The notes under the pieces: model-generated
The model's input: only the letters and a program-made list of their open reading frames with translations
Database searches by the model: none
Told to the model about the DNA's origin: nothing
Assembly (NCBI GenBank): GCA_937912125.1
Contig: CALDOK010000194.1
Span: forward strand, 17,284-81,283
Length of the DNA stretch: 64,000 nt
Source: an uncultured Pseudomonadota bacterium
Lineage (GTDB): Bacteria; Myxococcota_A; UBA796; JAFGLY01
Direction: 5' to 3'
Shown: positions 34,395-38,901 of the stretch, one piece after another
Layout: each line of letters begins with the position of its first letter
Position numbering within the stretch: position 1 is the stretch's first letter
Program-made: the position numbers and the translations under genes

Positions 34395-35417
34395 ATGTCC
34401 GAACGGAAGCTACGCATCGGCGTCACCGGCGCCACCGGAGCGGTGGGCCGCGAGATCGTCGCCATGCTTGGCCAGGTCGATCTGCCTGTCGGCGAGATCG
34501 TCCCCATGGCCTCCCCGGCCTGCACGGTCCACACCGTCGAGATCGGTGGAAAGAACGTCAGGATCGAGAACCTGAGCTCGGAGCTGGTCGCCAGCTGCGA
34601 TGTGGTCTTCATGGCCGTGCCGCCCGAGGTGGCCGGTGAACCCGTGCGGGTCGCCATGGACGAGGGCATCCCGTTGGTGGATCTCAGCGGGACCGTCGGG
34701 CCTGCGCAGGGCGTGCCCCTGGTGGTGCCCTGCGCCAACCGCATCGATCTGCAGGGGTTCAGGGAACACCAGGCGGTGGCTTCCCCCCGGCCCGACGTGG
34801 TCGGGCTCGCCACCTTACTGTCGCCCTTGATGGCTCAAGCGGGCGACCTTCGTTGCCGAGGCACCATCCTGCACAGCGCGGCTTCCGCGGGGCGCGCCGG
34901 CATCGAGGAGCTCTCGAACCAGGTGGTCTCCCTGTTCAACAGCCGCACGCCCCAGCGCAAGGTCTTCGAGCGAGGGCTGGCCTTCGACCTCGAGCCCACG
35001 GTCGGGACCGTCAAGTCCAGTGGCTGGACGGATCACGAGCTGCGGTGCGGGCTTCAGGTCGCCGACGTGCTTGGCCTCGAGGCGGATCGTGTCGCCATCA
35101 CCTCCGTGACCGGGCCCTGGTTCAACGGCATCTGCTTCGCGCTGCAGATCGAGACGGACGCGGGGCTGGACGCCGCCCAGGTCGAGGAGATCCTGGCCAA
35201 GTCGCCGAACATCCGCTCGAGCCTGTCTGGTGGAGAGTTCGAGACGCCGAGCCCGCGCTCCGCCGATGGGATCCCGGCCTTGTTGGTGGGCCGCGTTCGG
35301 AACGACCCCTCCGGGGGCATCATCCACCTGTGGGCGGCGGCCGATGAGCTGCGCTTCGGCGCGGCAGGCAACGCGCTCGCGCTGCTCACTGCGCTGCTCG
35401 AGGACGATCTGATCTGA
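34395..35417 (+). CDS. Aspartate-semialdehyde dehydrogenase-like protein lacking catalytic residues (Usg-type pseudoenzyme)
   Basis: 340 residues with the complete ASADH fold: NADP-binding GVTGATGAVGREIVAML, VFMAVPPEVAGE, and the C-terminal dimerisation half (LLVGRVRNDPSGGIIHLWAAADELRFGAAGNAL). The active-site loop NPNCST is replaced by SPRPDV (Pro133 at the catalytic Cys position), and the general-base GH motif reads TGPWFNG (Pro241 for His). It therefore should not form the thioacyl enzyme. E. coli Usg is a known Cys-less ASADH relative. Automatic annotation would call it asd; I advise against that. The function is unknown. Confidence 0.85.
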   Translation: MSERKLRIGVTGATGAVGREIVAMLGQVDLPVGEIVPMASPACTVHTVEIGGKNVRIENLSSELVASCDVVFMAVPPEVAGEPVRVAMDEGIPLVDLSGTVGPAQGVPLVVPCANRIDLQGFREHQAVASPRPDVVGLATLLSPLMAQAGDLRCRGTILHSAASAGRAGIEELSNQVVSLFNSRTPQRKVFERGLAFDLEPTVGTVKSSGWTDHELRCGLQVADVLGLEADRVAITSVTGPWFNGICFALQIETDAGLDAAQVEEILAKSPNIRSSLSGGEFETPSPRSADGIPALLVGRVRNDPSGGIIHLWAAADELRFGAAGNALALLTALLEDDLI

Positions 35418-35474
35418 CCTGACAGCTTGTCGGGGCCAGGGCCGCTCTGGCCGCTCCCTTGTCACGCTGTCAGG
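35418..35474 (+). terminator. Nested inverted repeat after the Asd-like gene
   Basis: CCTGACAGC and GCTGTCAGG form a perfect 9-bp outer stem starting one base after the stop codon; inside it GGCCAG and CTGGCC form a second stem. No U-tract follows. This is either a Rho-type/bidirectional terminator or a regulatory dyad. Confidence 0.5.
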
Positions 35475-35521
35475 TGGTGCCTCCGAGGCTCCTTGATTCC
35501 GGTGCTCGGAGGGCTCGCACG

Positions 35522-35552
35522 ACCCTGGCGTGGTTCTTGCAGACGCCAGGGT
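35522..35552 (+). promoter_or_regulatory. 10-bp hairpin in the leader of the surface/barrel fusion gene
   Basis: ACCCTGGCGT and ACGCCAGGGT form a perfect 10-bp stem with an 11-base loop, 36 bases before the start codon. It may be an operator or an mRNA leader hairpin. A TTGCAG and GATAGT 18 bases apart overlap its 3' arm and could be a weak promoter. Confidence 0.4.
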
Positions 35553-35587
35553 GCGGACTGGATAGTCATCGCCTGGAGGACCGCCTC

Positions 35588-38107
35588 ATGTGCACCATCG
35601 CAGCCATGGCTCGCAACTTCACCGCTCTCGCGCTGCTGGTTGCGTTGGCCCCACCGGCCTCTGCCGAGCCCACGCGGGTCGCGTGGAGTGAGGAACAGGG
35701 CACCGGCATCACGGATCTCTCCATCTCCGACGACGGGCGCTGGGTAGCGTTCATCGAGGAGGGTTCGGACGAGCTGCGCTTCCTGGACACCCACAGCTGG
35801 GAGGTCGTGGACGCGACGGCCGCCTGCGGCAACGGCAGTATCGGAGGCGTGGCTGTCAGCGGCCCAGACACGGACAACCTGTACAAGGTCTACGTGGGAT
35901 GCTCGGACGGCACCCTGGTGGGCGGCACGCTGGACGACTCCGGTCTCGCCAGCATCGGGGAGGGCTCCAGCTCCAGCGCCGACACGGGGGACGACACCAC
36001 CACCAGCAGCGGCGACTGGTCCACGCCCGTGACCCTCGACGGTGCCGGCGCGGTGCTCGCTGTCGAGACCGACGGCAGCTCCGTCTACGCCGTGGCCGAG
36101 GCCGACAGCGGCAACGAGCGCGTGCACAAGGTCGGGGTCGCTGACGCCACCGAGTCCACCAGCGGGTACCCGTCCACCTTCGGGCAGTCGGGCCTGGCGG
36201 ATAGCTGGCTGGGCACGAGCTACCTGTTCATCTCCCACGGTAGCCAGAAGGTCAGCAAGGTCCAGCTCTCCACCGGCTCCATCTCGCTGTCCAACGAGAA
36301 CATCAGCGCCGACATGGGCGACATGGACGCCGTCAACGACAACGCCGCCTTCCTGGCGGACGCGGACGGCGGCGTCATCCGGTTCAACCCCTCGGGGGGC
36401 ACCAACTCCTTCGACATCCTGTTGGATGACGTGGACGACGATCTGGTCAGCGTCCAGGCGCTGGTGATCGACGAGACCGAGAGCTTCCTGGCGGCCTACG
36501 ACAGCCTGGGGACCAGCACCGGTGAGGTGATCCTCTACTCCTTCCAGGCCAGCAACCTCAGCGTCGGTGACCAGGAGCTGCAGCGCTTCTCGGCCAGCCC
36601 CATCAACGAGATGGTGCGCCTGGATGGCTACGTGGTCGCCGGTGGTGAGACGGGTTCCCTGCAGGTCTTGACCGACCGCCCCTGGGTAGAGATCGAGGAC
36701 ATCGTCCCCGACGATCGGGTCATCTCCGGCCAGGAGGTCAACGTCTCCTTCACCTCGGACATGGCTGGCGACTGGGAGGTCTACCAGTCCTCGGCATCGA
36801 CCGGGGACACGGATCTGTTGGCCAGCGGGGACTGCGAGGCCGGCGTCGCCGCCCTCGCGAGCTTCACCGTGGGCTCGAGCTTCGACGAGGGCGACAACGC
36901 CCTGTTCGTGCTGGTCAGCTCGGACGGCAAGACGGGCCATGATCGCGGCACCGTGAACGTGGACAACCCGCCGAGCAAGGTGAGCCTGAGCGCCGAGGGC
37001 GTGGGCTTCGGAGACAGCCAGATCACCGTGGCCTTCGACGGGATCGACGATGCCGATCTGGGCTCCTACGTCGTCTATGTGACGGTCACGGAGTTCGAAC
37101 CATCCGACTGGCCCGAGGGCAGCTACGGCGGTCCGGACTTCGATGGCCCGGACGACCTGGACCTGCCCCTCGTGGTCACCGATGTCACGGCGGGCGAGGA
37201 TGTCTCCCGCACCATCTCCCCCGTCACCAACGAAGTTACATACTATGTGGCTGTCCGCGCCATCGACGAGGGCGGCCAGGAGAGCGCCATGAGCAATGTC
37301 GTCAGCGTCACCCCCCAGCCCACCATCGGCGCGGCCGAGCTGGCCGGCGAGACCGGTGGATACTGCGGCACCCGCAGCGCTTGGGGCTTGGCGGCCCTCG
37401 GCCTGGCCGGGCTGTTGGCCCTCGGCAGGCGTCGCGGTGTCGGCGTCGCCGTGCTGTTGCTGGCGCTGGCGGCTCCCAGGGCCGATGCGGCGGTGGACGA
37501 AGACGAGCACCCGCGCGCCAACGCCAGCATCGAGCTGCGCTATGGGCCTTTCTTCCCCAGCAACACGGCCGTCACCAGCGTCTACGGATCCTCGGGCCAC
37601 GGCGTGCTGTGGCTCGAAGGCGGCTTTCGTATCTCGCGCTTCGCAGAGCTCGACTTGGGGGCGGGGTTCTACCAAGAGCTCGGCACCAAGGTCAGCGTGA
37701 CCGACTCGACCTACCACTCCTCGGAACACACCATGATCACGGCCTGGCCCTTCACAGGGGCCCTCACCGTGCGACTGGACGTCCTGCACGAGCAGCTGCT
37801 CGTTCCCACCGCGCGCATCGGCATGGACTACTGGCTCTGGAAGGAGAACTGGTACGTAAACCCCGACGTGGGCGGCGACAGCAGCATCAGCGGCGGCGAG
37901 CTGGGATGGCACTGGGGCATCGGCGCCAACGTGTTGCTGGATCGTTTCGACTCCAAGCATGCCTCGTGGCTGGCCACCAGCACGGGCATCGACGACACCT
38001 ACCTGGTGGTGGACTGGCGCACCCAGAGCCTGGGGCAGTGGGGCGAAGACAGCTCGAGCATCCTGGATGGGTCCATGATCACCATCGGGCTCAAGCTGGA
38101 CATGTAG
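35588..38107 (+). CDS. Secreted FN3-containing surface protein with MYXO-CTERM-like motif, fused to an outer-membrane barrel-like domain
   Basis: 839 residues from ATG 35588 (GGAGG 8 bases upstream; ATG 35606 is an alternative). Order: signal peptide (FTALALLVALAPPASA); residues ~25-370, propeller-like beta repeats (SISDDGRWVAFIEEGSDELRF); a beta segment; an FN3-like domain (~465-580); then a MYXO-CTERM-like sorting motif: Cys593, hydrophobic helix (WGLAALGLAGLLALG), RRR. Such a motif normally ends a protein. Here the frame continues into a second signal-like helix (AVLLLALAAPRADA) and ~200 residues resembling an outer-membrane barrel with a terminal aromatic/hydrophobic pattern. It looks like two genes joined in frame. 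Confidence 0.75.
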   Translation: MCTIAAMARNFTALALLVALAPPASAEPTRVAWSEEQGTGITDLSISDDGRWVAFIEEGSDELRFLDTHSWEVVDATAACGNGSIGGVAVSGPDTDNLYKVYVGCSDGTLVGGTLDDSGLASIGEGSSSSADTGDDTTTSSGDWSTPVTLDGAGAVLAVETDGSSVYAVAEADSGNERVHKVGVADATESTSGYPSTFGQSGLADSWLGTSYLFISHGSQKVSKVQLSTGSISLSNENISADMGDMDAVNDNAAFLADADGGVIRFNPSGGTNSFDILLDDVDDDLVSVQALVIDETESFLAAYDSLGTSTGEVILYSFQASNLSVGDQELQRFSASPINEMVRLDGYVVAGGETGSLQVLTDRPWVEIEDIVPDDRVISGQEVNVSFTSDMAGDWEVYQSSASTGDTDLLASGDCEAGVAALASFTVGSSFDEGDNALFVLVSSDGKTGHDRGTVNVDNPPSKVSLSAEGVGFGDSQITVAFDGIDDADLGSYVVYVTVTEFEPSDWPEGSYGGPDFDGPDDLDLPLVVTDVTAGEDVSRTISPVTNEVTYYVAVRAIDEGGQESAMSNVVSVTPQPTIGAAELAGETGGYCGTRSAWGLAALGLAGLLALGRRRGVGVAVLLLALAAPRADAAVDEDEHPRANASIELRYGPFFPSNTAVTSVYGSSGHGVLWLEGGFRISRFAELDLGAGFYQELGTKVSVTDSTYHSSEHTMITAWPFTGALTVRLDVLHEQLLVPTARIGMDYWLWKENWYVNPDVGGDSSISGGELGWHWGIGANVLLDRFDSKHASWLATSTGIDDTYLVVDWRTQSLGQWGEDSSSILDGSMITIGLKLDM

Positions 38108-38124: not shown

Positions 38125-38901
38125 ATGCCCAGCTACCGCCTGCTGCTCGAGTACGACGGCACGGGCTTCGTGGGCTGGCAACGGCAGTCCATCGGGGTGA
38201 GCATCCAGGGGCTGGTGGAGCAAGCCGTGGCCAGCGTCATGGGCCTGCCCAAGGTCTCCGTGATGGCCTCGGGTCGCACGGATGCCGGTGTCCACGCCCT
38301 GGGCCAGGTGGCCAGCTTCACCGTGCCGGTGGAGCGCGAACCGGGCTCCCTGCGCAGGGGCCTCAACGCGCAGCTGCCCTTGCAGGTGTGTTGCCAGGAA
38401 GCATCCTGGGTGCGCGATGGCTTCGACGCTCGCAAGCACGCCTGCGCCAAGCGCTATCGCTACCGCATCATGGATGGCGACCGGCGCTCCGCCATCCGGC
38501 AGCGCTACCTGGCGTACGAGCGCAGCACACTCGACGTCGCGGCGATGACGGAGGCGGGAGCCTTCTTGGTGGGCACCCACGACTTCACCAGCTTCCGCGC
38601 GGCGGGGTCCTCCGTGCCGACCTCCACCCGCACCCTGCACGAACTCAGCGTGGAGCGCAGGGAGGACGAGCTGTGGATCGAGGTCAAGGGCAGCGGCTTC
38701 CTGCGCCACATGGTGCGAATTCTGGTCGGCACGCTGCTCGAGGTCGGCCGCGGCCGCATGCTTCCACAGGAAGTGCAAGGGATTCTCTGCGCCCGTGACC
38801 GCACCCGAGCACCCAAGACCGCCCCCGCGAAGGGACTGTGCTTGGTCGAGGTCGAGTACCAGGGCGCGGACCAGCCTGTGGTGCCGCGCGGCGTCGGCTA
38901 G
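38125..38901 (+). CDS. truA: tRNA pseudouridine synthase A
   Basis: 258 residues from ATG 38125; the ORF-track frame begins far upstream inside the fusion gene. TruA converts U38-40 of tRNA anticodon stems to pseudouridine. Signatures: LLLEYDGTGFVGWQRQ, the catalytic GRTDAGVHA (Asp53), RYRYRI, GTHDFTSFRAAG, FLRHMVRILVGTLLEVGRG. Its stop codon shares CTAG with the convergent FYDLN gene. Confidence 0.96.
   Translation: MPSYRLLLEYDGTGFVGWQRQSIGVSIQGLVEQAVASVMGLPKVSVMASGRTDAGVHALGQVASFTVPVEREPGSLRRGLNAQLPLQVCCQEASWVRDGFDARKHACAKRYRYRIMDGDRRSAIRQRYLAYERSTLDVAAMTEAGAFLVGTHDFTSFRAAGSSVPTSTRTLHELSVERREDELWIEVKGSGFLRHMVRILVGTLLEVGRGRMLPQEVQGILCARDRTRAPKTAPAKGLCLVEVEYQGADQPVVPRGVG

Follow-up and report, generated by a model that had tools for sequence, protein, structure and literature searches.

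A probable polyprotein of the Myxococcota with an internal MYXO-CTERM-like tag, a second signal peptide and an outer-membrane barrel

Two otherwise separate surface proteins are probably produced in an uncultured member of the Myxococcota as a genuine polyprotein, a single chain which, judged from its sequence, would be cut by two membrane proteases. The gene lies within the window, the whole 64,000-nucleotide stretch of DNA analysed here, translation of which gives a single open frame of 839 codons and a stop at 35588-38107, with a good Shine-Dalgarno-like GGAGG 8 bases 5' of the ATG at 35588. The preliminary description of this DNA had noted an internal cysteine, hydrophobic helix and triple arginine, from which the frame ran on through a second signal-like helix into a barrel. 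Both observations hold: the first agrees with the translation, the alignment of relatives and the structure model, and the second with an A632-x-A634 site and eight modelled strands. The features of the locus are these:

34395-35417, plus strand: asd-like gene, upstream neighbour, in conserved synteny with the locus throughout the phylum
35588-38107, plus strand: gene for the putative MXAN_2561-MXAN_2562 fusion polyprotein, 839 aa and a stop codon (translation and orthologues)
35588-35665, plus strand: N-terminal signal peptide, residues 1-26, ending PPASA/EPTR (sequence; short N-terminal signal peptides occur in most intact relatives)
35666-36697, plus strand: beta-propeller domain, about residues 27-370 (AlphaFold2 pLDDT mostly >90; Foldseek matches to WD40-type propellers and BamB)
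36698-37315, plus strand: Ig-like and fibronectin-III-like domains, about residues 371-576 (structure model and profile match; the NF045522 match, 472-612, starts here)
37364-37435, plus strand: internal MYXO-CTERM-like sorting tag, Cys593, helix 598-613 and Arg614-616 (sequence, alignment, AlphaFold2)
37427-37489, plus strand: putative internal signal peptide, with the Arg cluster as n-region, hydrophobic residues 618-630 and an A632-D-A634 site (sequence, alignment)
37490-38104, plus strand: predicted mature outer-membrane beta-barrel of the MXAN_2562 family, residues 635-839, strands 646-838 (NF040596, 8-strand model, Foldseek)
38125-38901, plus strand: truA-like gene, downstream neighbour, in conserved synteny with the locus throughout the phylum

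A minus-strand open frame of 832 aa (35462-37960 of the window) also runs antisense to the fused gene and is probably a side effect of G+C-rich codon usage.

AlphaFold2 models the whole protein with a mean pLDDT of 87.7. Its folded parts are confident, residues 614-641 fall below 50, and the two junction helices, at 598-613 and 621-627, lie within a low-confidence stretch flanked by confident domains. Modelled alone, the barrel has eight strands spanning 646-838 (pLDDT 89.7, pTM 0.83), for which Foldseek finds OmpA, OmpW and NspA. The match of the window protein to NF040596, the profile of the MXAN_2562 barrel, covers positions 3-208 of 208 in the model (E 8.5e-25) at 87.6 bits, under the curated cut-off of 100, and the same profile was matched by all 39 members. 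The ectodomain part matches NF045522, the MXAN_2561 profile, with E 9.1e-8 and 31.9 bits, under the curated cut-off of 150, as do 37 of the 39 members at E up to 0.1; the proposed orthology of the N-terminal part to MXAN_2561 rests on synteny and pairing. A Pfam search of the window protein gave nothing useful and a PDB sequence search with the barrel returned no relative. The profile NF053801, for the Bd0486 family of outer-membrane barrels, was also matched by 37 of the 39 members of alignment A1, and BamM by one; given the NF053801 matches, the barrel family may reach the Bdellovibrionota.

The junction between the two parts reads ...GETGGYC593GTRSAWGLAALGLAGLLALGRRR616GVGVAVLLLALAAPRADA634/AVDEDEH..., with the predicted cut at the slash. 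Cys593, encoded by TGC at 37364-37366, sits in a Gly-rich linker, and a short acidic linker separates Ala634 from the barrel. Across residues 577-678 of 50 aligned fused proteins, conservation reaches 90% in five columns alone, C593, R614, R615, A632 and A634, which are the very residues that typify a MYXO-CTERM tag and a signal peptidase I site. Cys593 is kept in all 50 of these relatives and is the sole invariant column between 577 and 631; in A1 both Cys593 and Ala632 are invariant. The motif is no accident of sequence. More broadly, the Cys, the helix, 2-5 basic residues, the second helix and a small-x-small site are retained by 78 of 78 fused proteins analysed, the site being AxA in 73 (a scripted pick of the cleavage site sometimes fell a few residues early, as in the window protein, where the alignment gives 632-634). 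The internal segment has the basic n-region, hydrophobic h-region and small residues at -3 and -1 that mark a signal peptidase I substrate. Selection acts on the junction, the dN/dS of which is 0.19-0.48 in 12 of the 13 close pairs compared, the remaining pair being saturated.

The first of the two signals has the layout of a MYXO-CTERM tag, with a Cys signature, a hydrophobic helix and an Arg cluster. Against TIGR03901 it reaches 11.5 bits, short of the cut-off of 20, and that profile was matched by 8 of 39 relatives at E up to 0.1 (best E 8.5e-4). TIGR03901 places the tag at the extreme C terminus, whereas here it is internal, with 223 residues downstream of the Arg cluster; among the other MYXO-CTERM matches of the same genome, the best 90 all end 0-38 residues from the stop. 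About 76 matches in this genome (G000) lie above the cut-off, a large set for one genome, and many of these tags carry a GCGC signature as against the one Cys in the tag of the fused protein. The genome also encodes a myxosortase (Mrt_core 108.8 bits, above the cut-off of 100), whose nearest equivalog is MrtP (138.7 bits, cut-off 250), and a myxosortase core protease scores above the cut-off in all 44 genomes tested, this one included. Cleavage of the fused protein by myxosortase and its anchoring at the surface are predicted. The low TIGR03901 score of this copy and its lone Cys would also suit partial processing, with signal peptidase I cutting alone and a vestigial or uncut MYXO-CTERM segment holding the ectodomain on an inner-membrane hairpin. 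Such an outcome is unlikely in view of the invariance of Cys593 in the aligned fused relatives and its retention in fused members beyond the class.

Natural variation at the locus supplies a second body of evidence for two working signals in the proposed polyprotein. MXAN_2561, which is MYXO-CTERM-anchored, and MXAN_2562, an outer-membrane barrel, represent two known orthologue families, and in other Myxococcota their orthologues are adjacent genes that often share an ATGA overlap (a four-base overlap in 11 of 21 split pairs), with the asd-(locus)-truA setting common to fused and split forms. In the split pairs of other classes and families, the N-terminal part ends in RRRR directly before the stop and the barrel begins with M, next K or R, and then a hydrophobic signal. 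In genus g8, which the barrel tree nests inside the fused family f2, the stop falls just after the Arg tail and is followed by an ATG and a signal peptide; in three g8 genomes this ATG lies within about 10 bases of the stop with the frame unchanged, as expected if a fused gene split later. A tree of 111 barrels requires at least 10 changes between the fused and the split state on well-supported branches, a count that gives no direction, and the switch point always lies between the two signals. Comparison of the two forms thus indicates that, wherever a stop comes between them, one segment works as a C-terminal tag and the other as an N-terminal signal; where there is no stop, both retain the same residues. 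In families f8 and f9 the arrangement of the N-terminal part contrasts between L129, L131 and L134 on the one hand and L128, L130, L132, L133 and L135 on the other: a full N-terminal part ending in a MYXO-CTERM is found by itself between asd and truA, and a second, shorter N-terminal part adjoins the barrel elsewhere in the genome, which suggests duplication and separation.

The split orthologues also bear on whether the protein might stay whole, its helices forming an ordinary transmembrane hairpin that joins ectodomain to barrel. The two helices and basic turn of the AlphaFold2 model would make such a hairpin, and families f11 and f34 include fused variants that lack the Cys. A plain linker, however, would have no need of an invariant Cys or of an AxA site, the roughly 12 residues from the second helix to the first strand cannot bridge the inner to the outer membrane, and in split orthologues the same segments serve as a genuine tag at the C terminus of one protein and a genuine signal at the N terminus of the other. 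An uncut protein is accordingly very unlikely, and the ordinary linker that the preliminary description had envisaged in homologues is not borne out. In the Cys-less variants themselves (L124 and L141 of family f34, L125 of family f11), the barrel is fused to an upstream part through a longer hydrophobic helix with basic residues, a further way of joining the two at this locus. Loss of myxosortase was considered as their cause and rejected, as those genomes have both the protease and MYXO-CTERM proteins.

An ATGA overlap is a sign of translational coupling, and the coupling of translation in split relatives, together with in-frame GTG, TTG or ATG codons in the interval of some fused genes, could point to separate translation of the barrel by re-initiation, from a start codon within the fused frame. 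The positions of these codons are not conserved, however, and 39 of 78 fused genes have no start that would leave at least 16 residues ahead of the cleavage site. In 10 of the 78 there is no ATG, GTG or TTG at all between the Arg cluster and the cleavage site, so that a separate barrel start by a common codon is impossible there. Re-initiation is thus highly improbable.

The polyprotein reading is strengthened by the spread of the continuous frame. The locus is present in 60 of 63 genomes of the same order, and in 27 of 27 of high quality; 55 of the 60 have the frame uninterrupted, the other five being the split genus g8. About 24 genomes of other classes have the same continuous frame and architecture, including G141, G077 and G191 of family f16, each a single-contig genome. 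Chance stop-to-stop joins of both parts (L110, L116, L123 and L145) were left out of the fused count, and the contig profile scan of genomes used a closer alignment, A2, A1 being too diverse. Although the window comes from a fragmented assembly of 527 contigs, the chance that a sequencing or assembly error deleted a stop/start region, as had first been entertained, is practically nil, because independent assemblies by the dozen, single-contig ones among them, show the same open frame. The fusion is ancient in its own order and recurrent elsewhere in the phylum, with both signals intact. Fusion by loss of a stop, another of the three options first offered, is correct in the evolutionary sense that MXAN_2561 and MXAN_2562 have been joined, and incorrect as a recent or accidental event; the separate adjacent genes sought in relatives do exist without making the fusion a recent one. 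The third option, a polyprotein, is the best supported, and from it we infer cleavage and equimolar output.

In the proposed mechanism, Sec would export the fused chain until the first helix halted transfer, leaving the Arg cluster in the cytoplasm, and the second helix would then restart export. Signal peptidase I would cleave after Ala634 and free the barrel for insertion into the outer membrane, a cut that would be nearly forced because the first barrel strand follows Ala634 after only about 12 residues, not enough for an uncut chain to span the periplasm. Myxosortase, acting at a lipidated Cys593, would cut the ectodomain from the hairpin and leave it lipid-anchored and bound for the cell surface, and the hairpin of about 40 residues would be thrown away. 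A single Arg cluster would thus double for the sorting tag and the signal peptide, and two products would come from one message, the equivalent of the ATGA-overlapping gene pairs of other Myxococcota. Lipidation, export by the type II secretion system (T2SS) and the order of the cuts are presumed for the fused protein.

Processing of polyproteins by membrane proteases of the host is typical of viruses, and bacterial polyproteins of this kind are, to our knowledge, rarely documented. The Bradyrhizobium fbcH product, a cytochrome b/c1 precursor, is a bacterial polyprotein that is cleaved at a signal peptide within the chain; unlike the fused protein here, it involves one protease, has no sorting tag and gives rise to respiratory inner-membrane proteins. 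Literature searches found no paper on MXAN_2561/2562, nothing on the Bradyrhizobium precedent and nothing useful on bacterial polyproteins. The bunyavirus Gn/Gc and flavivirus envelope polyproteins are chains cut at the internal signal peptide of the next protein (PMC5113920, PMC7601889), although by the eukaryotic signal peptidase complex and in unrelated proteins.

A close likeness is MXAN_5598 of M. xanthus, in which an internal MYXO-CTERM also precedes an outer-membrane barrel and the N-terminal part is proposed to be processed and anchored (PMC11980579). That protein, with an adhesin and an OmpA domain, is described as atypical and as a possible gene fusion, and internal MYXO-CTERM motifs are reported to be rare (PMC11980579). 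It is a single case, whereas the locus here belongs to the MXAN_2561/2562 families, a distinction drawn from the description of MXAN_5598; what is new by comparison is conservation over the order, recurrence in other classes, and one Arg cluster for two signals, with a defined second signal and cleavage site. The MXAN_2561 and MXAN_2562 families themselves (NF045522, NF040596) share the two modules and the asd-truA setting, but differ in that here there are one frame, a shared Arg cluster, an N-terminal part with a propeller and scores below the cut-offs. TraA and TraB, to which the same source likens MXAN_5598 (PMC11980579), are likewise a MYXO-CTERM surface protein and its partner with overlapping genes, although they are two genes without fusion and are likened here by description. 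Myxosortase action has been demonstrated experimentally for TraA of M. xanthus, which was also expressed in E. coli with and without a myxosortase, and lipidation and T2SS export are proposals or findings for other substrates (PMC11980579).

A broader interpretation, plausible if short of probable, is that this is a phylum-wide natural polyprotein in which back-to-back signals on one Arg cluster serve two unrelated proteases, the propeller and barrel being made 1:1 and assembling as a complex, and in which selection couples the products either as one chain or as ATGA-linked genes, with at least 10 switches between the two. That propeller and barrel form a complex at the surface is conjectured because they occur as a pair. 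For annotators, the locus is a caution that MYXO-CTERM can be non-C-terminal. The locus would represent a bacterial polyprotein conserved at the level of the order or wider, for which split genes in the same neighbourhood act as natural controls. It opens three questions to direct test: does myxosortase require a free C terminus, can a sorting tag and a signal peptide both rely on one Arg cluster, and why are propeller and barrel produced together?
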